This document shows positions 13,618-52,987 of a stretch of 64,000 nt of DNA, piece after piece. The notes below the pieces were generated by a model, which worked only from the letters and a program-made list of their open reading frames with translations, searched no databases and had not been told where the DNA came from. Origin of the DNA: Colwellia psychrerythraea (GTDB lineage Bacteria > Pseudomonadota > Gammaproteobacteria > Enterobacterales > Alteromonadaceae); contig MAAF01000040.1 in assembly GCA_002163005.1 (NCBI GenBank), positions 62,001 through 126,000 on the forward strand, read 5' to 3'. Every line of letters begins with the position of its first letter. The first letter of the stretch is position 1. Both the position numbers and the translations under genes were made by a program.

Positions 13618-15660
13618 TTGGAATTTTCTGATGAGGATTTATTTGAACAAGGACCTGTTATTTTATTTACTTGGCAACTTACGCCGGGTTGGCCTGTGCT
13701 AAAAGTAACAAATAATGTTCTACAATTTGGCTACGAACCGGCGGAGTTTTTGTCAAAAAAGTTGTTCTATGCTGACATGGTCCATCCTGACGATTTAGAT
13801 CATATTATCAATGAAATGATGGTTTTCTTAGAGAATGATATCCTTTATTTTGAACAAGATTATCGAATCATTACCAAAAGTGGTGACGTTCGTTGGGTCT
13901 ATGAAAAAACAATATTAAAAACAGACGCTACAGGATTGCCAACTCTCGCTAAAGGTTATCTGCTTGATATAACCGAACGTAAACTGGCAGAGCAAGAGTT
14001 ACGCGAATCCTCAGAAAAATACTACCAATTATTTGATAAAAATAAGGCTATTGAGTTACTAATAGATCCTCATACGCAAAAAATCATCAAAGTAAATGCC
14101 GCGGCTGAAAAATTCTACGGCTATAACAATCAAGAATTTAGTAACTTATCCATCGGTGATATCAATGTGCTGCCTATTGATATTATAGAAGCGGAAATTG
14201 AGTTAGCGCTAAGCGAAAAACGAGATTATTTCAATTTTAAGCACCAGCTTAAAAATGGCGAAATAAGAGATGTTTGTGTCTATTCAGGGCCTTTACTAAT
14301 GGCTGGGCGCAGAGTACTTTATTCAATTATCCACGATATTACCGATCAACGTCAGGCAGAGAGAGCTCTTTTACAAAGCGAGCAAAAATTCCGCTCATTT
14401 ATCGAAACCACCTCAGAAGGATTTTTAATTCTTACGCCACAATTACAGATTAATTTTTCTAATACGGCTATCTGCCAACTAGCAGGTTATTCTTTATCTG
14501 AAATGAGGGGGAAATCTGTATTAGTCTTCGTCACCCCAGAATCACGTATTCAATTACGCCAACAGCTGAGTATGGCTCGTTCCCACTCACACCTAGCCGC
14601 CGAATTAACCTTAAAACACAAAAATGGTCATCACGTATTTATTCGATACAAGGCTACAGTAATGGCTGATGGTAGCGGTTTTTTTACTTATATCACTGAT
14701 ATTACTGAACGAAGACTAAAAGAAGTAGAGCTAAAAACATTAACCAGTGCAGTAAAGCATAGTGCCAGCTCAATTATTATCACTGATAAAAATGGCATTA
14801 TTGAATACGTTAATCCCCGCTTTTGTGTGGTTACTGGTTACAGCGAGCAAGAAGTAATTGGTAAGACACCAAGCTTAATCAGCACAAAAAACACACGAAA
14901 GGAACTTCATATCGAATTATGGAAAACAATTCTTGCAGGTGATGATTGGCACGGTGAAACCTACAACTGTACCAAAAGCGGTGAATTTTATTGGTCGATG
15001 ATGTCAATTTCACCGATTATGAATGAAGATGGAGAAATATGTCAGTTTGTTAGTGTTAGTCAGGATATCACTGAACATAAATCCAAACATTTAAAGATGG
15101 AAGAATTAGCCCTCAGAGATCCCTTAACAGGTTTAGCTAATCGCCGTTTGTTTGACGACCGCCTTAACCAAGCTATTCAAATAATCAACTATCAAAATAG
15201 AAATGGTATTGGGATTATTATGCTCGATCTTGATCATTTTAAAGCTATTAATGATACCTATGGCCATGACGTAGGTGATTTAATATTAAAAGAAGTCGCA
15301 CGGAAATTACTCTTGTCTACTCGCAAAGAGGATACCGTATCTCGTTTTGGTGGCGATGAGTTTATAATACTGTTACAGGAAGTCAGTATAATATCTGACG
15401 CTCAGCGGGTGGCGGAAAATATTCTTCAGTCATTATCAGAGCCTATTGATGTAGGTGAACATACTTTTTCAATCACGTGTAGTTTGGGGGTTTGTCTTGC
15501 ACCTCAAGATGGCTGTATTTCAACTCAACTATTAAAAGCCGCAGACCTTGCCTTATATCAGGCAAAAATAGCGGGCCGTAATAACATACAATTTTATAAC
15601 ACTGATATGCAGCAATTGAGCGAGAGCAAAAAACACTCAGAACAAATAACCTCTTCATAA
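13618..15660 (+). CDS. multi-PAS diguanylate cyclase
   Basis: This 680-residue soluble protein has four PAS domains (about 20-120, 140-245, 255-365 and 370-490) and a C-terminal GGDEF domain (about 505-665). The active site SRFGGDEF is intact, and the RxxD inhibitory site (RKED) sits just before it, so it should make c-di-GMP from GTP and respond to product feedback. There is no membrane segment, so the PAS domains sense something cytoplasmic; some may bind haem or flavin. The start is a TTG at 13618 with a good AAGGGGAG ribosome site eight bases upstream. It is transcribed alone. Confidence 0.9.
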   Translation: MEFSDEDLFEQGPVILFTWQLTPGWPVLKVTNNVLQFGYEPAEFLSKKLFYADMVHPDDLDHIINEMMVFLENDILYFEQDYRIITKSGDVRWVYEKTILKTDATGLPTLAKGYLLDITERKLAEQELRESSEKYYQLFDKNKAIELLIDPHTQKIIKVNAAAEKFYGYNNQEFSNLSIGDINVLPIDIIEAEIELALSEKRDYFNFKHQLKNGEIRDVCVYSGPLLMAGRRVLYSIIHDITDQRQAERALLQSEQKFRSFIETTSEGFLILTPQLQINFSNTAICQLAGYSLSEMRGKSVLVFVTPESRIQLRQQLSMARSHSHLAAELTLKHKNGHHVFIRYKATVMADGSGFFTYITDITERRLKEVELKTLTSAVKHSASSIIITDKNGIIEYVNPRFCVVTGYSEQEVIGKTPSLISTKNTRKELHIELWKTILAGDDWHGETYNCTKSGEFYWSMMSISPIMNEDGEICQFVSVSQDITEHKSKHLKMEELALRDPLTGLANRRLFDDRLNQAIQIINYQNRNGIGIIMLDLDHFKAINDTYGHDVGDLILKEVARKLLLSTRKEDTVSRFGGDEFIILLQEVSIISDAQRVAENILQSLSEPIDVGEHTFSITCSLGVCLAPQDGCISTQLLKAADLALYQAKIAGRNNIQFYNTDMQQLSESKKHSEQITSS

Positions 15661-23225: not shown

Positions 23226-24428
23226 TTATCCTTTAAACTGCCATTTATCAAATTGATCCGCTGGCATAGGTCTGGCGATATAATACCCTTGGGCTACATC
23301 ACATCCTTCTGCTAATAATAAATTCCATGTGTCTTTGTCTTCAATACCTTCAGCGACCACTTCCATATGAAGCTTATGCGCTAACATAATGCAGGTTTCT
23401 ACAATGGCTTTACTCTCCTTCTCTTGCTTCATATTCGTAACAAAAGACTGGTCTATTTTTAATTCGGTAAAAGGCATTTTGTGTAACTGTGATAGCGATG
23501 AATAACCCGTGCCAAAATCATCAATGGATAGTTGAAAGCCCTTTAACCTAAAACGGGTAAAGATATCTAATGAAGTCACTTCACTATCCATTAATGCACT
23601 TTCTGTTAGCTCTAACACAATCATAGAAGGGTCAATTTCATACTTTTTAACCAGCATTCTTAGCTGCTCAGGCAATTTCAAGCTGGTTATGTTTTGTGCA
23701 GATATATTAATAGATAATCGAGTCGCTCTATTCAGTTTTTGCCAATGTACGCTTTGTTTTATCGCTAAATGGATTACTTCTTCAGAAAGCTGTTCAATTA
23801 AACCAGTTTGCTCCGCAAGTGCTATAAATTTATCAGGAAAAATAAGGCCAAACTCAGGGTGTAACCAACGAACGAGTACTTCAGCGCCATGGAGACATTC
23901 GGTTTTCATATTAATTTGAGGTTGGTAATATAATATCAGCTGTTTGTTATCAATAGCATCACGTAAGTCTTGTTCCGTTGGAATGAAGTCAAACTTACCT
24001 TGACTTGCTTTATCATTATTGGAGCTAGCAAACTCTCTTTGCGTCTTCTTATTCAATAGTGATATTAATAAGCACGTGAAGACATCTATGTTAATTGGTT
24101 TGGTAAAAGTATTGATTACATTCAAGCCACAACTTAACGCTAATGTTTCAGCTGAGTGCAATACACCACTATCGTAACCACTGACTAAAATCAATCTTGC
24201 CGGAGATCTATGCTCTGCTAAGTGCCTAATGACTTCAATGCCATCCATTTCTGGCATCATCAGATCTAATAGTATAATGTCTTCTGCATTCAGGGTTAAC
24301 GCTAGAAATTCACGCGGATTTTTAAATATTTCTACATGCGTAAAAATAGGCTCAATGATAGTGTTAAGTAAGTTGCACGTTAAGGTATCATCATCAACAA
24401 TAAAAACTCTATTGATCATACATATCAC
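23226..24428 (-). CDS. response regulator with EAL phosphodiesterase domain
   Basis: This 400-residue protein has a receiver domain (about 5-125; phospho-acceptor Asp in LLDLMMPEMDG) and an EAL domain (about 155-395). The catalytic signatures are kept: EVLVRW in place of EALxRW, ELTESAL, IDDFGTGYSSL, LKIDQSFV and VVAEGIED. It should hydrolyse c-di-GMP when activated. The start may be ATG 24428 or 24419; both overlap the end of the upstream hybrid kinase gene, so that kinase is the likely phosphodonor. It is the last gene of the three-gene signalling unit. Confidence 0.9.
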   Translation of the reverse strand: MICMINRVFIVDDDTLTCNLLNTIIEPIFTHVEIFKNPREFLALTLNAEDIILLDLMMPEMDGIEVIRHLAEHRSPARLILVSGYDSGVLHSAETLALSCGLNVINTFTKPINIDVFTCLLISLLNKKTQREFASSNNDKASQGKFDFIPTEQDLRDAIDNKQLILYYQPQINMKTECLHGAEVLVRWLHPEFGLIFPDKFIALAEQTGLIEQLSEEVIHLAIKQSVHWQKLNRATRLSINISAQNITSLKLPEQLRMLVKKYEIDPSMIVLELTESALMDSEVTSLDIFTRFRLKGFQLSIDDFGTGYSSLSQLHKMPFTELKIDQSFVTNMKQEKESKAIVETCIMLAHKLHMEVVAEGIEDKDTWNLLLAEGCDVAQGYYIARPMPADQFDKWQFKG

Positions 24429-31756: not shown

Positions 31757-33835
31757 TTATTTATAGCGAGCAGCAAAATCAAGTAGCTGCTTTGCTGGTA
31801 TAGGTTTACTAAAATAATACCCTTGTACCAAATCACAGCCTAATTGATTTAATAAAGTAAGTTGCTCCTTAGTTTCAACGCCTTCAGCAACGACCGTTAA
31901 CCCTAAACTATGTGCCATGGCTATGATGGTATTAACCAACTCACAATCGGCCTTGTTTCGCGGTATACCATTAATAAAGCTCTGATCTATTTTCAGTACA
32001 TCAAAAGCATATTGTCGTAAATAGCTCAAGGAAGAATACCCTGTACCAAAATCATCCATGGATAATTTTATCCCCAATTCACTAATTTTAACCAAGGTAT
32101 CATGAATATGTGATTGACCACTCATTAATACCCCTTCAGTAATTTCAAGCTCTAACTTTTCTGCACTCACATTTGTCTCACTAAGGGCATCTTTGATAAA
32201 GCTAAGTAACTCTGCATCTCTGAATTGGCAAGGAGACAAATTAACTGCCATGGTCAATTTTGGCTGATGATTTTTTTGCCAATCATTTAAAAAGCTTAGT
32301 GCTTGCTTAATAACAAAGCGCCCAATCGGGATAATTAGGCCCGTGTGCTCAGCAATAGGAATAAATTCATCTGGAGTTATATTACCTAAGGCTGAATTGT
32401 GCCAACGCAACAAAGCTTCCACGCCAGTAATATGTCGATTTTTAACGTCAAATTGAGGTTGGTAATATAATTCAAATTCATTGCGCTCCAAGGCCCCATG
32501 CATTTGCTCTTCAATTTCAAAACGGCGAAGCATCATGGTATTCATTTTTTTAGAAAAAAACGAATAGGTATTACGTCCTAAACCTTTTGCTTGATACATT
32601 GCGGTATCAGCATTTCGCAACAAATCAGAGGCACAACAACCATTTTCAGGGGAAATGGCAACACCAATACTCAACGTCAGTATTAATTCTCTACCATCTA
32701 TTAGAAAAGGAACTCGAAAACTTTTAAGTAAATTTTCAGTGATAACTAACGCATCATGATGTTCAGTGATACCTCGTAATAGCACAATAAATTCATCCCC
32801 CCCCAAACGGCCAACAGTATCTCCTTCTCGTAACACTTGCTTTAATCTATGAGCAGCTTGTATTAGTACTTTATCGCCTATTTCATGACCCAATGAATCA
32901 TTAATTTTCTTAAAATCATCTAAATCAAGAAAAAGCACTGCGGTTTTATCATTATTTCTTTCCGCTTCAGTAAGCATTTGTGATAAACGATCGAGTGCTA
33001 AGAAGCGATTAGGCAATGAGGTTAACGTATCAAAATAAGCCTGATGTCTTATTTTTTCGGCAGATTTATATTGTTCACTAACATCACGAATTATAAGTAC
33101 TATTTGATTATACTGTGGCAAGTAACTCATTCTTGCCTCAAAATGCACCAATCCATGAGGCATAATTAGCTCATATTCAAACGTTATCATCCCCTCTTGC
33201 TGTAATATTTCATCAATATGGGATTGATATTTACTGACGACCTCATGAGGTAATATATCCGTCATACGTTTACCAATAAACTGGTGTGGTGAAACGTAGA
33301 GGTTCTTTTGATCACCCGTATGATAATCAACAATAGTCCCATCTACCTCCATCAAGAAAAATAAATCAGGTATTGCATCAAAGATTGTCTCAAGCATATG
33401 TTCTTTAAATAGTACTTGTGATTGAGCATGTTTAACATCCGCTAAATTAACGTCAATACAATACATTTGTTTTTTATTATATTGATTAGTAAACAGAGCA
33501 TGACTTGAAAAGACATTTACATCATTACCATTTTTATGGCGTAAAGTAATTTCTGAAGCAGGGATTTCAATTCCTTTTTTGAGCCAATCACTGTGTGCAC
33601 CAATAACTATTTCACGCATAGGATTAGGGATGATTAAATCTTCTAGTTTTTGCCCTAATGCTTCTTTTTGGGTGTAACCATAAAGTAATTCACTACCTAG
33701 ATTCCAATACATAACCCGCCGCTGTTCATCATACCCCTGTACAGAAACAACATTTACTTCATCAAACAATTGGTGAAGTGAATCATTGAGAACATATTGA
33801 TGAGTCTGTGCATTTTCAACAGTGCTTGATTTCAT
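31757..33835 (-). CDS. PAS-GGDEF-EAL c-di-GMP turnover protein
   Basis: This 692-residue soluble protein has two PAS domains (about 15-130 and 140-255), a GGDEF domain (about 265-425; GRLGGDEF, with the REGD inhibitory site) and an EAL domain (about 440-690; GVEALLRW, LEITEGVL, MDDFGTGYSSL, LKIDQSFI, VVAEGVE). Both active sites look intact, so it could make or break c-di-GMP, with PAS input deciding the balance. It is transcribed alone; the upstream 33836-34322 gap holds one hairpin and no gene. Confidence 0.9.
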   Translation of the reverse strand: MKSSTVENAQTHQYVLNDSLHQLFDEVNVVSVQGYDEQRRVMYWNLGSELLYGYTQKEALGQKLEDLIIPNPMREIVIGAHSDWLKKGIEIPASEITLRHKNGNDVNVFSSHALFTNQYNKKQMYCIDVNLADVKHAQSQVLFKEHMLETIFDAIPDLFFLMEVDGTIVDYHTGDQKNLYVSPHQFIGKRMTDILPHEVVSKYQSHIDEILQQEGMITFEYELIMPHGLVHFEARMSYLPQYNQIVLIIRDVSEQYKSAEKIRHQAYFDTLTSLPNRFLALDRLSQMLTEAERNNDKTAVLFLDLDDFKKINDSLGHEIGDKVLIQAAHRLKQVLREGDTVGRLGGDEFIVLLRGITEHHDALVITENLLKSFRVPFLIDGRELILTLSIGVAISPENGCCASDLLRNADTAMYQAKGLGRNTYSFFSKKMNTMMLRRFEIEEQMHGALERNEFELYYQPQFDVKNRHITGVEALLRWHNSALGNITPDEFIPIAEHTGLIIPIGRFVIKQALSFLNDWQKNHQPKLTMAVNLSPCQFRDAELLSFIKDALSETNVSAEKLELEITEGVLMSGQSHIHDTLVKISELGIKLSMDDFGTGYSSLSYLRQYAFDVLKIDQSFINGIPRNKADCELVNTIIAMAHSLGLTVVAEGVETKEQLTLLNQLGCDLVQGYYFSKPIPAKQLLDFAARYK

Positions 33836-45431: not shown

Positions 45432-45808
45432 GCATCATTGTTGTTAGATGCCCAAGATAATTATTATTGATAAGGATTATACCCGTTACCAATCGAGCGC
45501 TTCTTCGGTGGGGCTAAAACGATTTCTGTTGCGTTATTCATTTGAACAATGGATCAACCATTGTCTAAAAAAATGTCTCAACTAAATCGTTTGGTCTTGA
45601 TGGGTAAAATTCTTTATTGATACTAATTTACGTTGCTTTACTGTGCTTTTCACTATTTGATGTGTCATCTTAAATGGCTAAACATTCACCAAAGAAGTTG
45701 AGCAGATGTTGCTCGTATACTTCACGTAACATCTCACAATATAACCACCGAAATAGGCGTAATAACACACGCACAGGCAAGAAAGCCCCTGATTTTCACC
45801 ACACCTAG

Positions 45809-45844
45809 TTATCACCATCAAGTGATAAAGTGTCAGCTTTTTTT
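45809..45844 (+). terminator. orphan intrinsic terminator
   Basis: TTATCAC and GTGATAA pair around CATCAA, then CAGCTTTTTTT follows. It is about 380 bases after the preceding stop codon in the 45432-46046 gap. Either the preceding mRNA has a very long tail or a small RNA ends here. The same gap contains TATACCCGTTACC at 45478, resembling the start of the MITE, with a 9-bp inverted pair AAACGATTT/AAATCGTTT downstream. Confidence 0.55.
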
Positions 45845-46046
45845 ACAAAGCGTTCATACATGCATTCTGTTCATTATTTAACCGCATAATAAATAGAGTA
45901 AAAAAATAACAGGTATATAATTTGCTTGCCTACAGCTTATGCCATAAGGATTAAAAGTAGTTTATGGCTAAGTATACTTTTTAACAATAACGTAAGGATA
46001 ATCTCTTTTGAATTTATATATTGGGATTGTTAATAAGGAATCAAAT

Positions 46047-46784
46047 ATGCGAACACTTACAAAATTTACTAGTACGTTGTTTCTTGCACTTGCTAGCTTT
46101 TCCTATACAGCTCAAGCATCATTGATTTTTGAGTTAGATACAAACTTTAGTAATGCAACTACACCATTAGGAAATGCGCCATGGTTGCGAGCAACTTTTG
46201 AAACTCAAAATGCCACCACGGTTAGGTTAACAATGGACAGTTTACTGCAAGACTCGAGTGAATTTGTTGATGGTGGTCAGGGGTGGTTTTTTAATCTCAA
46301 CCCTATTTTTGACGCTGCTAACCTGGGCTTCAATCAGGTTAGTTTTTCCGGTATCTCAGCAGCTGGAGCTGGAGGTGTAGTAATTAATACGGGAATTGAT
46401 TTTACCAATGCTGACGGCGGTGGCCTCTATGATATTCAGTTTGATCTAGTTGGTGCACCACCAGCAGATCGATTCGGTATGGGTTCCCAATTAGTGTACG
46501 ATATAACACTAGCTGGTGGTTTAACCGAGTTAGACTTTGATTTTTCCAGTAGCCCACAAGGTGGTAATGGTATTTGGAAGTCCGCTGCCCATGTTCAAGG
46601 TATTACGGATGCTAACGGCCGACCTGAGTTGAGTTCTTATATAGGAGCTGATAGTGGAATAATTTGTAATGATCCTGATGGCTGTGATGGTGGTGGTCCT
46701 CCGACAGAGGTTCCTGAACCCAGTGTGTTGTTTCTACTTGGTAGCGCTTTACTTGCCTTAAGCTTACGTAAAAAAACGTATTAA
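46047..46784 (+). CDS. PEP-CTERM sorted surface protein
   Basis: This 245-residue secreted protein starts at ATG 46047 (AAGGAA upstream); the tracked start 13 codons earlier lacks support. A signal peptide (residues 1-24, ends AQA) is followed by an Asn/Gly/Asp-rich beta-type domain with no Cys apart from a late pair (IICNDPDGCDGG). The C-terminus has the exosortase signal: VPEPS, a hydrophobic helix (VLFLLGSALLALSL) and a basic tail (RKKTY). Such proteins are processed by an exosortase and tied to exopolysaccharide. No exosortase is in the window. The adjacent convergent gene encodes a c-di-GMP-controlled subtilase, which also fits a biofilm theme. Confidence 0.88.
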   Translation: MRTLTKFTSTLFLALASFSYTAQASLIFELDTNFSNATTPLGNAPWLRATFETQNATTVRLTMDSLLQDSSEFVDGGQGWFFNLNPIFDAANLGFNQVSFSGISAAGAGGVVINTGIDFTNADGGGLYDIQFDLVGAPPADRFGMGSQLVYDITLAGGLTELDFDFSSSPQGGNGIWKSAAHVQGITDANGRPELSSYIGADSGIICNDPDGCDGGGPPTEVPEPSVLFLLGSALLALSLRKKTY

Positions 46785-46809
46785 CAATAATTGAAATAAT
46801 GACCAATAA

Positions 46810-46835
46810 AAAGACACTGCCATGGCAGTGTCTTT
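46810..46835. terminator. bidirectional terminator, perfect 26-bp palindrome
   Basis: AAAGACACTGCC followed by ATGGCAGTGTCTTT is an exact palindrome between the convergent PEP-CTERM and subtilase genes. A-runs and T-runs on the two arms let it act on both strands. Confidence 0.8.
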
Positions 46836-46878
46836 ACATGTTAAGCGTATTAATAAAGTTATATTTTGTTCAATAGCT

Positions 46879-48699
46879 TTATTTACGGCCTTTTTTACGT
46901 GCCTGTACATTGACTTGAATGCTGGTCTGGTTTTGGTTGCCCGCAGCATCAAATGCCTTTGTTACAATGGTATGGTATCCGTTAGCCACTTTGCGGGTAT
47001 TCCAACTATAAGACAGTGTTGATTCAGTCGTTTGCGTTTTTAACTGGCCGTCAATATACAATTCAATTTTAGTCACCGCAGTGTTGTCTGTTGCACTCAC
47101 TTTAATCGCTTGATTACCGCTTATGCTACTGCCATTAACGAGATTAGTAATACTCACACTCGGTGCTATGGTGTCTGCAACATCAGCGATATTGTCTATT
47201 GTCAGCCAATAAGTTGAAGAGTTACCTTGATTACCTGTTGCATCATACGCTTGAGCGGTGAAAGCTACGCTACCATCAGCAATATTATTACTGTTAAAGT
47301 TAGCGCTATAAGGCGCGACAGTATCAGTACCAATTAATACACCATTGGCATATAGGCTAACAGAGCTCACAGCCATATTGTCTTGTGCATTGGCAGTGAT
47401 ATTAAAGGAGCCTGTTTGAACACTATTTTCTGTTGGAGATGTTATTGCAACTGTTGGTGCTTGCTGATCGATAGTAGGTGTATTTACTACCATCGCAACC
47501 GCAGCCGCGGCATCAACTCTGCCATGACCATAATAGCTATTAAATACACCGCCATTTTTGGACTTATCTGCGCTAGCCTCTAAAATATTTTCAAGTTCAT
47601 CATTACTAAGATTTAGGTTAGCTGATTTTATTAGTGCTAATGTTGCTGCCGTTGCTGGGCTGGCAAAAGAAGTACCACTTACAGCACTATATCCACCACT
47701 TTTGGTCGTGGTCCAAATCCCTGACCCCGGTGCCGATACATCCACACAATTACCGTAATCTGACCAGCTGGTCTTATTATCTGCACTGTCTGTGGCTGAT
47801 ACTGTGATAATACTAGGATTATCTGTACAGTTTAAGTCTGCACCACCGTTACCTGCTGAAGCCACAACCAAGCCACCTTTATTACGCATGTATTGTGCCG
47901 CGTTGGTTACGCTGGAGCTGGTAGTTACACTGTAACTAATATTGGCAATGTCGGCGCCGTTATCTGCCGCCCAAGTTAGACCGTTGGCAACGTCACTCCA
48001 GTAAGCATAGCCATTACTTTGGTTGGTAATTCGAATCGGCATAATTGATGCATGCCAAGCGATAGAGGTTACGCCGTTATTATTATCACTTATTGCCGCT
48101 ACAACACCCGCAACCTTCGTGCCGTGACCATAGATGTCACTCGTTTCGTTGTTGCGACTAACACTGTTCCAACCAGCAACCATATTGGCTGATAAATCGG
48201 TATGGTTGCTGTTAACACCAGTATCTAGAATAGCAACCACTATGCCATTACCCTTTGCTGTTTCCCAAGCAGTAGGTAATTGCATTTTATTAAGGTGCCA
48301 AGCATTGTTGTAATATGTGTCGTTGGCTATAATTTCGCTTGGTTTAACGAGTAAATCGACCTCAGCAAATTCAATGTTTGGATTATTAGATAACGCTTTG
48401 ACAATTGCTTGTTCTGCATTTGCCGGTACATTGATGATGTGGGTGCGTAATTGATTAAGCTTACCTTTTGAGCTGGCTTTGTGCTTGCCTAGGATCTTTT
48501 GGAAGTTCTGCTCTGATAAGCCTGGTTGTGGTTGTACTAAAATTTGACCTTTTGCAAAAGCCGCAGAATGTTCAGGAGGATTCGCTATAGCAAAATTGCT
48601 GAAAGTTAATGGTAATAATAATGTGCCTAGTGCAAAACTTTTGCTTTGGCGTTTTATTAGTGAGCTGATTTCGATTTGATTGTTACTAACGTACTTCAT
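46879..48699 (-). CDS. secreted subtilisin-like serine protease (S8)
   Basis: This 606-residue protease starts at ATG 48699 (GTGGAG upstream). Signal peptide to about residue 39, then an I9-type propeptide/inhibitor (about 50-118) and an S8 catalytic domain (about 128-410). The triad is Asp159 (AILDTGVNSNH), His192 (YGHGTKVAGVVAA) and Ser344 (SGTSFASPA), with the oxyanion Asn in SAGNGG. Two C-terminal Ig-like domains (about 425-510 and 520-600; VSSVSLYANGVLIGT, VTKIELYIDGQLKTQ) may bind surface polymers. The chain ends in a basic tail (ARKKGRK). The long leader holds a c-di-GMP-I riboswitch. Confidence 0.93.
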   Translation of the reverse strand: MKYVSNNQIEISSLIKRQSKSFALGTLLLPLTFSNFAIANPPEHSAAFAKGQILVQPQPGLSEQNFQKILGKHKASSKGKLNQLRTHIINVPANAEQAIVKALSNNPNIEFAEVDLLVKPSEIIANDTYYNNAWHLNKMQLPTAWETAKGNGIVVAILDTGVNSNHTDLSANMVAGWNSVSRNNETSDIYGHGTKVAGVVAAISDNNNGVTSIAWHASIMPIRITNQSNGYAYWSDVANGLTWAADNGADIANISYSVTTSSSVTNAAQYMRNKGGLVVASAGNGGADLNCTDNPSIITVSATDSADNKTSWSDYGNCVDVSAPGSGIWTTTKSGGYSAVSGTSFASPATAATLALIKSANLNLSNDELENILEASADKSKNGGVFNSYYGHGRVDAAAAVAMVVNTPTIDQQAPTVAITSPTENSVQTGSFNITANAQDNMAVSSVSLYANGVLIGTDTVAPYSANFNSNNIADGSVAFTAQAYDATGNQGNSSTYWLTIDNIADVADTIAPSVSITNLVNGSSISGNQAIKVSATDNTAVTKIELYIDGQLKTQTTESTLSYSWNTRKVANGYHTIVTKAFDAAGNQNQTSIQVNVQARKKGRK

Positions 48700-48787
48700 T
48701 TTGTGACTCCACAATGTGTGAAGTCTACAGAAAACCTATTACTTCTTAGTGCCTGTCATTGCACATTATTATTGGCACAATAATGCT

Positions 48788-48872
48788 GGTAGTTGGCAGT
48801 TCCGCTGTCGTAGAATTATTCCCGTAGACCGGTGACTTTGCGCCACTTTCTTTCGAAAGTTTTGCTCTTTTC
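48788..48872 (-). promoter_or_regulatory. cyclic-di-GMP-I (GEMM) riboswitch
   Basis: Read on the minus strand, the leader has GAGCAAAAC, then ACTTTC-GAAA-GAAAGT (perfect 6-bp stem with GAAA tetraloop), then GGCGCAAAGTCACCGGTCTA, then ACAGCGGAACTGCC. This follows the Vibrio Vc2 aptamer piece by piece: GGGCAAACC, a stem with GAAA loop, GACGCAAAGCCUCCGGCCUA and GUAGCGGGGUUACC. The tetraloop and the CGCAAAG ligand-binding core are kept. Between aptamer and start codon, ATTATTGTGCCAATAAT and a GTGCC/GGCAC pair offer alternative folds for an expression platform. The rest of the 48700-49139 gap is leader and AT-rich promoter DNA. Confidence 0.87.
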
Positions 48873-49139
48873 AAGTACAGCTATTTAGCAATTTATATTA
48901 TAAATTGCTAAATATTTGGTCAGATTAAACTCAAGGTTAATTTGACCTTATTGTGCTGTTCGCCGCAATTCTAGTACATTCTTAAGAGGATAGCCAAACA
49001 TAATCGATCAAAAAACAGACTATATTCACCTTGTAATTATAAGTTATTCATTAACATGAAAATAAATTTAAAAAAAAATTTTCGTGTTTAAATGCGCTAA
49101 CAAAACCTATTTATTACTGATTTCCTACTCATTTAATGA

Positions 49140-49922
49140 CTATTTACGCCCATGTAGGGGTTTAAAACTCATCAGAGCAAAAAACGATGCAATGCTTGTT
49201 GCGATTAACACTGTCGTCAGAGCAAGGATGTTCATTTGTCCGTAAAGCGCAAACCGTAATAACTCAACACAAGCGGTAAAAGGATTGAACTGACAAAGCC
49301 AATATAACCACAAACTCGCCTCTTGCATTTTCCACAACGGATATAAGGCACTGGAGAGAAAGAACATGGGGAAAATAACAAAGTTCATCACACCAGCAAA
49401 GTTTTCCAATTGCTTGATTAGATTAGACAACATCAGCCCTAACGCGCCGAGAAAAAAGGCAATTAAAAAAATTGCTGGTATTGAGCTAACATAACCCATA
49501 AGCGGAATATCAACGTCAACTAGCTGCGCAAAGAGTAAAAAAATTACGACTTGTAAAAGTGACAGCAACGCACTGGCAATCAACTTACAACATAATAAAA
49601 AAGGTCGAGGTAGCGGACTCATCAATAAAACTTTCATGCTACCCATTTCACGATCGTAAACCATAGAAAGCGAACTTTGCATGCCATTAAATAAAATGAT
49701 CATGCAGCAAAGTCCTGGGGTAATATATTGCTGATAAGTAATATAGGTGCCGTAAGGCTCCATAATAGAAACACCCAGCGCCGCTCTAAAACCCGCAGCG
49801 AAAACAACCAACCAAAGTAGCGGTCTAACTAACGCACTTAATAAACGCGATCGTTGTTGGAAAAAACGTAAAACTTCACGCTTAACAATGCCATTAAAAC
49901 AATAAAGATAACGATTGTTCAT
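49140..49922 (-). CDS. pedC: PQQ-associated ABC-2 permease (PedC type)
   Basis: This 260-residue ABC-2 family permease has six helices and the segments GIVKREVLRFFQQRSRLLSA near the start and MSPLPRPFLLCCKL in the middle loop. It belongs to the permease group linked to quinoprotein alcohol dehydrogenase loci (PedC in Pseudomonas, LutF-like in methylotrophs). It overlaps the ATPase gene by one base. In P. putida the pedA1A2BC set is tied to growth with scarce lanthanides, so a role in lanthanide handling is plausible here. ABC-2 permeases are usually exporters, so direction of transport is uncertain. Confidence 0.85.
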   Translation of the reverse strand: MNNRYLYCFNGIVKREVLRFFQQRSRLLSALVRPLLWLVVFAAGFRAALGVSIMEPYGTYITYQQYITPGLCCMIILFNGMQSSLSMVYDREMGSMKVLLMSPLPRPFLLCCKLIASALLSLLQVVIFLLFAQLVDVDIPLMGYVSSIPAIFLIAFFLGALGLMLSNLIKQLENFAGVMNFVIFPMFFLSSALYPLWKMQEASLWLYWLCQFNPFTACVELLRFALYGQMNILALTTVLIATSIASFFALMSFKPLHGRK

Positions 49923-50650
49923 CAGCTGATCTCCACGTTAGCCGTTAACGTGCGATAAAGCTGGTATACGTCGGCGACATTATGCTCTTTACATAATTCA
50001 CCACTGATGCCCTGTGCTTGAATTTTCCCTTCATCGATAATAATTAATTGATCGTCTGCTGCTATTTCATCGATTAAATGTGTTGCCCATAACACACAAA
50101 TGCCTAATTGTTGGCTAAGCGAGCCAACGTATTCGGTGATCATTTTTCTGCTATCAATATCTAAACCAACCGTTGCCTCATCGAGTAACAATACTTTGGG
50201 TTGATGAATTAACGCTCGGGCAATTTCGACCCGGCGGCGATGCCCACCATTTAATGATCTTACTTTATCATTGAGTCGCTGCGTCAACTGAAGTTGAGAC
50301 AAAATATCGCTGATATTTTCTAGTGCTTGTGATGATGAAATACCATGTAGCGCCGCATAATAAGTTAAGTTTTGCTTAACGGACAAATCTAAATCTAGCG
50401 TGCTTTGCTGAAAGACCACGCCCATCGACTGCATGATTTTCGATCTCTCATGATTTAAGTCATAACCATTGATCTTAATATCCCCTGATGCCGCCTGATA
50501 AAGACCCGTTAGCATTGAGAATAAGGTGCTTTTTCCTGCACCATTAGGACCCAGTAACACATTAAAACCGCTTTTAATGCTTAGGCTTAAACCATCAATT
50601 GCCGCCTTTTTACCATAATGAAAAGTGAGTTCGTTGGTAATAATACTCAT
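49922..50650 (-). CDS. PQQ-associated ABC transporter ATPase (PedB type)
   Basis: This 242-residue ATPase starts at ATG 50650, overlapping the beta-propeller stop by ATGA; the tracked start is nine codons earlier. Walker A is GPNGAGKST and Walker B KVLLLDEATVGLD. The signature is LNGGHRRRVEIARAL in place of LSGGQ, a variation typical of the PQQ-linked ATPase family. It pairs with the downstream ABC-2 permease. Confidence 0.88.
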   Translation of the reverse strand: MSIITNELTFHYGKKAAIDGLSLSIKSGFNVLLGPNGAGKSTLFSMLTGLYQAASGDIKINGYDLNHERSKIMQSMGVVFQQSTLDLDLSVKQNLTYYAALHGISSSQALENISDILSQLQLTQRLNDKVRSLNGGHRRRVEIARALIHQPKVLLLDEATVGLDIDSRKMITEYVGSLSQQLGICVLWATHLIDEIAADDQLIIIDEGKIQAQGISGELCKEHNVADVYQLYRTLTANVEIS

Positions 50651-51651
50651 GGCACATTTCGTATCACTACGCCCCACGGATAACGTCCTACTTTAATTGA
50701 TTTTGTTACTTTCATGCGTTTAACATCAATCACTGACACATCACCACTAATACCATTAGTCGTTAATAGCTGACTTTGATCATGATTAAAAGCAAGCTGC
50801 CACACTCTACGCCCAACTAATAAATATTTCTCAACCGTCATTTTTTGACGATCAATAACGGCCACATGATTTGCGGGGCCTAATGCCACGAACGCATATC
50901 GTCCATCCTGTGTTAATTCGATGCCAACAGGTTGAACACGGTCATGATGAATACCTCGTATATCAAAGGTAAATTCCTTAATAATTTTTTGCGTGGCAAC
51001 ATCAAGTATCACCACAGTGCCGCCAATTTCAGAGCTGACCCATAAATATTTATTATCGTCGGTAAATTTAGCTGACCTAGGTCGTGCACTCACTAAAGTA
51101 TTAGCAAAGTTTTCATGGGTTTTGGTGTCAATCCAATGCACCATATTGGTCGTTTCCGAGGTTACCACGACAATTTTTCCATCGGGACTTACCGCTAGTC
51201 CTTCAGGTTCAACCCCTACATCTATCTGCGCGATAACAGTAGCAGAGTCAATATCAATCACCGTAAGCAAGGCATCATCTTCATTAGAGGTATAAATAAT
51301 TTTGCCATTGGGATGTAATGCAATAGTTTCAGGATCTTCACCAGAAGGTAGCTCGCCGATGATCTGCTCTGTTTCTACATCAAGTATTTGAATCCTATCT
51401 GACTCGCTCGCACAAATATAAGCAAGCGACTGTTCCTTATTGAGAATAATGCCTCGAGGTCGTTCACCTATCGAGATTGTTTTTATAACTTTATTGAGGC
51501 TTAAATCGATAACCGAAATATTGTCATCTTTTTCATTGGTGACATACGCAAATTCAGTGGCATAACCAGCGGTAGCGTTAAACAAAACGGCTACTACCGA
51601 TAATCTAAAAAATTTTCTAACCTTTTCTCTAAAATAAAGTGTCTTTTTCAT
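50647..51651 (-). CDS. PQQ-associated YVTN beta-propeller protein
   Basis: This 334-residue periplasmic protein has a signal peptide (to about residue 31) and about seven YVTN-type blades, each with repeats such as AYVTNEKDDNISVIDLSLNK, AYICASESDRIQILDVE and IYTSNEDDALLTVIDID. It is the beta-propeller protein of PQQ-dependent catabolism loci (PedA2-like position). Acidic DDN and EDD turns could bind cations. It overlaps the ATPase gene by four bases and follows the binding-protein gene by 109 bases. Confidence 0.87.
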   Translation of the reverse strand: MKKTLYFREKVRKFFRLSVVAVLFNATAGYATEFAYVTNEKDDNISVIDLSLNKVIKTISIGERPRGIILNKEQSLAYICASESDRIQILDVETEQIIGELPSGEDPETIALHPNGKIIYTSNEDDALLTVIDIDSATVIAQIDVGVEPEGLAVSPDGKIVVVTSETTNMVHWIDTKTHENFANTLVSARPRSAKFTDDNKYLWVSSEIGGTVVILDVATQKIIKEFTFDIRGIHHDRVQPVGIELTQDGRYAFVALGPANHVAVIDRQKMTVEKYLLVGRRVWQLAFNHDQSQLLTTNGISGDVSVIDVKRMKVTKSIKVGRYPWGVVIRNVP

Positions 51652-51760
51652 AAGTTACCTTTAGCCCAATATCCATTAAGAGCGTCCATTAAAAGTTTGC
51701 GTTGAAAGTAAATATTGAGCTTTTATGTTGAGCGTTTACCTTAAACATTTACCGTGTTTT

Positions 51761-52987
51761 TTACCGTGATAATTCGCATTGAGATTCTTGCGCATCAAAA
51801 CCAAGCGTATCAAGTTCAGTTATTGGATGAAGCATGCCAGGCTGTGGTGACTGCGATACCAAAGCGTGGGGATGCACCAAAGCCAGCGGCATTCTTAACT
51901 GTCGGCTCCAAGCACGAAAACTAAGCTTACGCCCCTTGTACGCTGCCAATTCAAAATCCACCGAGTTAATATATTCGATGAGCTTGTTACTAGAGTTTGA
52001 ATGAAGTTTATGCACCGATTGCGCAACACTGCGCACGGCAAGATAACCAGCAAAGTCTATTTCATTCATTTTTCTATCAGCCATTTCCATAAAACGATTT
52101 TGCAGTTGAGTAGCGCCCCACTGTTCTATCGCACTATGCCATGCCAAAGCTTCCAAACCAGCCGAGCCTATAACAGGCCGAGGTAAATAAGTATTAAAGG
52201 GTAAAAATTCAGCAAAAGCTTTCGACTTGTCAGCAACATAAACAACATCATAATCTTTTACGGTTTGAGTAAACAAAGGAATTTCTTGTTGTGCACTACG
52301 CCTAAGATCGGTATTAAAATCCCACTGTTTTTCATCGATAATTTTCAAACCAAAACGTTTCGCCGCCCGTTTAAACGATTTGGCTAGCTGAAGATCTTCG
52401 GCTTTACTACCCTGTATTAATAATACTTTATTCATCCGACGATAAAGCAACCACTGAGCAAGGGCATCAGATTTCATGGCATCACTGGGTATGGTATGAA
52501 ATACAGAAGCTAAACACTGGGCATTGCGTAATTCATCAGCAGATTCACTGACATTAAACAATAACACCGGCTTGTTTTTGGCCCAACGATCTACTTGCAC
52601 CAGTTGTGTTAATGGCGCTTGAAGAATAAAAATGCGTCGGCCCTGTTGATATTCTTCTTCTAGATATTCTAAAAACTGCGCTGTTTTCGTCGCAACAAAA
52701 TAGTTTAATGTAAAGTGTTGCTGTAAAAATTTCCCAGTAGTATTAGAGTCATTGATCGCAAGCTTAGCCCCCATATAGCCACTGTCTTCTGGCTTTTTAA
52801 AAAGAGTAGATACGCCGGGAGCTTGTTGCGGCGCCAACTTCACATAACTGATATCAAGGGTGATTGGACTTGATATTGCCTCAGTACTTGAAATTGCATT
52901 AGTACAATAAAAACAAAAGAGCCATACACCGCTAGCTACACTTTTCACTAGATACTTCTTAAACCTTACTCTTGTCACGATAAACAT
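51761..52987 (-). CDS. PQQ-associated periplasmic ABC binding protein
   Basis: This 408-residue protein has a signal peptide and a two-lobe fold related to branched-chain amino-acid binding proteins, but of the PQQ-linked subfamily (ITLDISYVKLAPQQAPG near the start, GAKLAINDSNTTGKFL, NKVLLIQGSKAEDLQLAKSF, VVYVADKSKAFAEF). It begins the pedA1A2BC-like operon. The divergent cytochrome c gene shares its upstream region, where a perfect operator lies 165 bases from this start. The ligand may be a metal or metal complex; inferred from the P. putida and Methylobacterium counterparts. Confidence 0.85.
   Translation of the reverse strand: MFIVTRVRFKKYLVKSVASGVWLFCFYCTNAISSTEAISSPITLDISYVKLAPQQAPGVSTLFKKPEDSGYMGAKLAINDSNTTGKFLQQHFTLNYFVATKTAQFLEYLEEEYQQGRRIFILQAPLTQLVQVDRWAKNKPVLLFNVSESADELRNAQCLASVFHTIPSDAMKSDALAQWLLYRRMNKVLLIQGSKAEDLQLAKSFKRAAKRFGLKIIDEKQWDFNTDLRRSAQQEIPLFTQTVKDYDVVYVADKSKAFAEFLPFNTYLPRPVIGSAGLEALAWHSAIEQWGATQLQNRFMEMADRKMNEIDFAGYLAVRSVAQSVHKLHSNSSNKLIEYINSVDFELAAYKGRKLSFRAWSRQLRMPLALVHPHALVSQSPQPGMLHPITELDTLGFDAQESQCELSR

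Follow-up and report, generated by a model that had tools for sequence, protein, structure and literature searches.

A c-di-GMP-I (GEMM-I) riboswitch preceding the gene of a secreted subtilase in Colwellia psychrerythraea and its predicted action as a translational OFF switch

The DNA analysed here, in the following called the window, is a stretch of 64,000 nucleotides from Colwellia psychrerythraea. Its minus strand encodes a secreted S8 subtilase of 606 amino acids (46879–48699) with a signal peptide, a prodomain, a Peptidase_S8 domain and two Big_7 domains. Pfam assigned the Peptidase_S8 domain (153 bits), both Big_7 domains and a fervidolysin-like prodomain, and the motifs DTGVNSNHTD, GHGTKVAG and GTSFASP of the S8 family are present in the protein. 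Thermitase (1thm) is the nearest solved structure. A Sec signal peptide was also read from the sequence; a first-pass annotation had likewise called the protein a secreted subtilase. The TTG at 48714, taken as start by the ORF finder, is not conserved in the orthologue of Candidatus Colwellia aromaticivorans (G001); distances refer to the ATG at 48699. Convergent to the protease gene lies a gene for a PEP-CTERM surface protein (46044–46784, plus strand; PF07589 over its cut-off), and the operon upstream (49140–52987), a PQQ-dependent alcohol dehydrogenase-associated ABC system, is unrelated to the switch described below.

A search of the whole window with Rfam cmscan revealed a match to the c-di-GMP-I riboswitch (RF01051) at 48876–48792 on the minus strand, which spans the full model (1–87) and scored 72.8 bits (E 2.4e-12) against a gathering cut-off of 35 bits; no second match in the window exceeded any gathering score. 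The aptamer contains the GAAA-capped stem CTTTC-GAAA-GAAAG and GCGCAAAG, and it ends 92 nt before the ATG of the protease gene on the same strand. The annotation had proposed a GEMM-I core with a GAAA-capped stem and a CGCAAAG segment about 90 bases before the protease start and had named a covariance search as one check; the search confirmed the element and all of these features, with the coordinates (48788–48872) shifted by 4 nt. That a GEMM-I riboswitch sits in the leader of the secreted subtilase gene is, as judged from the sequence, strongly supported. A search of one literature collection found no paper on this Colwellia switch.

Next to the score, conservation of the leader argues for a functional element. 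Among 39 Colwellia genomes, own included, five encode an orthologous protease with at least 83% identity, and in four of these (own, G010, G012 and G001) the aptamer was observed in the 5' leader on the same strand, with 73–74 bits in the three other species. There, aptamer and leader are kept despite differing flanking genes; identity to the window amounts to 92–99% for the aptamer, 90–100% for the platform and 80–93% for the DNA upstream of the aptamer. Comparison of aptamer and protease positions revealed that, among the S8 proteases of the genus, only these four orthologues adjoin a GEMM-I element. The fifth, of Colwellia sp. 12G3, has no aptamer; it has an unrelated leader and N-terminus and a replaced signal peptide, and this species appears either to have lost the riboswitch or never to have had one. 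This orthologue, together with a base that deviates from the consensus in the binding pocket (A20, see below), could be taken as signs that the aptamer has decayed or lost its function, but the score of 72.8 bits and a sequence that is almost unchanged in four species amid diverging flanking DNA make this very improbable. The N-terminus of the 12G3 protease (L037, 5776–7728) resembles a membrane anchor, and transposase-like fragments lie between its gene and the PEP-CTERM gene.

Other GEMM-I elements of the genus are found in different surroundings. Most Colwellia genomes have a G20 GEMM-I element followed by about 90–110 nt of strongly conserved non-coding RNA (own genome: L002 1400–1603, C18:91645–91727, minus strand; homologues e.g. 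L046–L049, L051–L054, L056–L071, L073 and L074). This RNA has an invariant TTTGCG complementary to the aptamer CGCAAA and several compensatory pairs, no close ORF follows on the same strand, and in most cases a convergent gene for a DUF885-like peptidase comes next. The arrangement suggests a c-di-GMP RNA that acts on its own or as an antisense RNA; for Colwellia sp. PAMC 21821 one antisense riboswitch target is listed (PMC9943018). In Candidatus Colwellia aromaticivorans, a further G20 GEMM-I element (L148, C15:92439, plus strand) precedes the gene of a secreted zinc-metallopeptidase-like protein with the motif HELGHNLALGH.

RNA folding of the leader gave two alternative pairings, both present in all four species. 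The first is a hairpin, GACTTCACA-CAT-TGTGGAGTC (48705–48725, minus strand), which sequesters the Shine-Dalgarno (SD) sequence GGAG (48710–48707). In the second, an anti-aptamer strand, TTTTCTGTAGAC (48723–48734, minus strand), which shares 3 nt with the 5' arm of the SD hairpin, pairs with a strand of the aptamer core, GTCTACGGGAA (48819–48829, minus strand). Compared with shuffles that preserved dinucleotides, both pairings were modestly better than chance: shuffling the tail 1000 times gave 7 sequences as stable as the SD hairpin (p about 0.007), and 47 of 2000 shuffles were as stable as the anti-aptamer helix (p about 0.02). All pairs of the SD hairpin are kept in the four species, one only as G-U, and the sole substitution in both helices, a C-to-U exchange in G012, maintains G-U pairing in both. 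Since the pairings hardly vary among the species, covariation lends the platform no support. The coding strand of the leader has no terminator-like site and, therefore, transcriptional control was rejected.

When the aptamer pairs were enforced in the RNA of the window, the SD sequence was fully paired and its opening cost about 8.5 kcal/mol. With the anti-aptamer helix enforced, accessibility of three of the four SD bases increased from about 0.04 to 0.74–0.92; in G001, the SD was released only partly. The anti-aptamer fold lies above the ground state by 2 kcal/mol in the own and the G010 leader, by 4 kcal/mol in G012 and by 7 kcal/mol in G001. Folding along the growing transcript gave the anti-aptamer fold as minimum at 48715, after which the completed SD hairpin wins, and in the predicted ground state of the full leader the SD is closed even without ligand. 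A switch would therefore need co-transcriptional kinetics or competition by the ribosome.

From these folds a translational OFF switch is predicted with moderate confidence. With ligand bound, the aptamer would be locked, and the hairpin 48725–48705 would form and bury the GGAG ribosome site. Without ligand, TTTTCTGTAGAC would pair with the aptamer core strand GTCTACGGGAA, break the base of the SD hairpin and free the ribosome site. The same aptamer could in principle be an ON switch, in which the ligand favours translation of the protease via a fold not captured here; the predicted ligand-free ground state already hides the SD, and GEMM-I switches of both signs are known (PMC9262584). We consider this rather unlikely, since the SD is fully paired in the aptamer-enforced fold, at the cost of opening given above, and no pairing was found through which a bound aptamer would free it. 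What we infer for the ligand and the sign of control is, on balance, a GEMM-I translational OFF switch for c-di-GMP upstream of a Sec-exported, thermitase-like subtilase, a reading that we hold to be fairly probable.

The DNA 5' of the aptamer contains two inverted repeats on the minus strand. IR2 (48882–48914), with a TATAAT element in its middle, lies directly 5' of the aptamer, and four of its pairs are changed on both sides in the four species; IR1 (GGTCA...TGACC, 48918–48947) has two such pairs. Together, 6 of 25 pairs are changed on both sides, which is above all 500 shuffles and slid controls; the nine pairs of the SD hairpin, counted alongside, have no double-sided change. In G001, IR2 has three G-U pairs and no A-C, a hint that it is the RNA strand that folds, in a transcript from a promoter-like site at 48997–48968 (TTGGCT-18-TAGAAT, minus strand), which is a consensus match only, not above chance, and is retained with changes in the four species. 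Given its TATAAT, it is also possible that IR2 acts as an operator. A regulon defined by IR1 was rejected, as nothing closely matching the pattern occurs elsewhere in the genome.

To which dinucleotide the aptamer responds depends in part on one base of the pocket. In the cmscan alignment, model position 11 (48866, minus strand), which the consensus alignment and the Vc2 sequence place at position 20 of Vc2, is an A where the Rfam consensus has G. This numbering agrees with the equivalence of Cd1 G11 and Vc2 G20 (PMC9262584). The aptamer of the window thus does not have the G20 of GEMM-Ia, a base that defines this subclass and not the RF01051 family, and has the A20 of GEMM-Ib instead; the annotation was right on the GEMM-I family but had missed this base. 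The leaders of G010 and G012 also carry A20, whereas that of G001 carries G20. The other three GEMM-I elements of the own genome have G20, and 73 Colwellia GEMM-I elements comprise 62 with G, 8 with A and 3 with other or unreadable bases at this position.

A20 in three of the four leaders, and the finding that A20G converts Geobacter GEMM-Ib from cGAMP to c-di-GMP selectivity (PMC6456294), raised the question of whether 3',3'-cGAMP, or both dinucleotides, could be the natural ligand. Against this stand the G20 of the G001 orthologue and the description of position 20 as a tuner of selectivity and not a hard filter (PMC9262584). Furthermore, no cGAMP synthase recognisable by a Hypr GGDEF serine or as CD-NTase was found: the Hypr serine (PleD D344 position) is absent from every readable GGDEF domain of the genome (52 GGDEF matches, two of them fragments that miss the residue, in an assembly 94% complete), and a search of five Colwellia genomes for SMODS nucleotidyltransferases was negative. 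A cGAMP ligand is, therefore, improbable. Since some 50 GGDEF domains are present and no known cGAMP synthase was found, c-di-GMP is the likelier ligand, perhaps with altered affinity. A bolder version, that the A20 aptamer senses 3',3'-cGAMP alone or with c-di-GMP, made by an unrecognised synthase, and that the G20/A20 change re-wired the protease, has a slightly smaller chance still of being correct. If it were true, a one-base change in an orthologous leader would have placed the protease under a different second messenger. The naturally occurring A20/G20 orthologues offer a ready-made case for testing how the specificity of GEMM-I evolves.

For c-di-GMP itself, the enzymes in the window say little. 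The annotation had counted at least four c-di-GMP enzymes, but only three genes were found, for a GGDEF (13618–15660), an EAL (23226–24428) and a GGDEF-EAL protein (31757–33835), together two domains of each kind. Three genes are uninformative against about 50 GGDEF and 26 EAL domains genome-wide, and a local enzyme cluster was dismissed as support.

The adjacent PEP-CTERM surface protein that the annotation had pointed out is real, but its gene is convergent and not co-transcribed with the protease gene. The tail-to-tail pair is conserved in five Colwellia species and in two genomes of genus g52 of the same family, and the exosortase (PF09721) is encoded in all five Colwellia genomes, as expected of a PEP-CTERM/exosortase system. 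In genus g52, two of three genomes pair homologous subtilases (43–58% identity) with a convergent PEP-CTERM gene, all without riboswitch; therefore, the pair may be older than the switch. The conserved pairing supports, at the level of gene order, a coupling of the protease to the surface protein. Both genes lie in a module of about 3.6 kb (45498–49130), and at both of these points homology between species breaks off, for the module as for its flanks; the module occupies different chromosomal places in related species, and the genes further out differ. Despite these sharp boundaries, a mobile element was rejected, as no transposase or integrase is encoded inside and a rough comparison gave no convincing terminal repeat. 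Between species, the PEP-CTERM gene (46044–46784; L035, L036, L037 and L039) keeps leader, signal peptide and sorting tail, and its middle is often almost wholly different, as if passenger domains were swapped.

As to substrate and biological role, we infer that with falling c-di-GMP the protease would be made and could trim surface or matrix proteins, with the neighbouring PEP-CTERM protein as best candidate partner. A c-di-GMP-governed switch between attachment and breakdown, as suggested before, is plausible in view of the predicted OFF sign and the conserved pair, although the four-enzyme count on which it had drawn fails.

This kind of switch is already known, and the Colwellia case is a new example with an unusual pocket base. 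Like GEMM-Ia riboswitches such as Vc2 of Vibrio cholerae, it belongs to RF01051, has the GAAA tetraloop stem and the GCAAAG junction and precedes a secreted or surface gene; unlike these, three of the four orthologues have A20 instead of G20. A20 is shared with the cGAMP riboswitches (GEMM-Ib) of Geobacter, but in the Colwellia host no Hypr GGDEF was found and the orthologue of a sister species has G20. An independent case comes from another genus of the family, g31 (L176), in which about 85 nt separate a GEMM-I element (88 bits) from the gene of a secreted S8 protease downstream; that protease is only about 40% identical and has PKD instead of Big_7 domains, the element has G20 and no PEP-CTERM neighbour was seen. 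The closest parallel in logic is PPEP-1 (zmpI, CD2830) of Clostridioides difficile, which a class I switch represses when c-di-GMP is high; the adhesins that serve as its substrates are raised by class II switches (PMC6366702, PMC11477304). In both systems, a GEMM-I element precedes the gene of a secreted protease, c-di-GMP lowers its expression (in Colwellia by prediction) and there is a tie to surface proteins. PPEP-1, however, is a zinc metalloprotease of a Firmicute and the Colwellia enzyme an S8 subtilase, the mechanism predicted for Colwellia is SD sequestration, and its PEP-CTERM partner has no riboswitch. If the predicted sign is correct, the logic of "protease off at high c-di-GMP" known from PPEP-1 would extend to a marine Gram-negative bacterium and a different protease family, and riboswitch control of a protease would now be tied to exosortase-sorted surface proteins.
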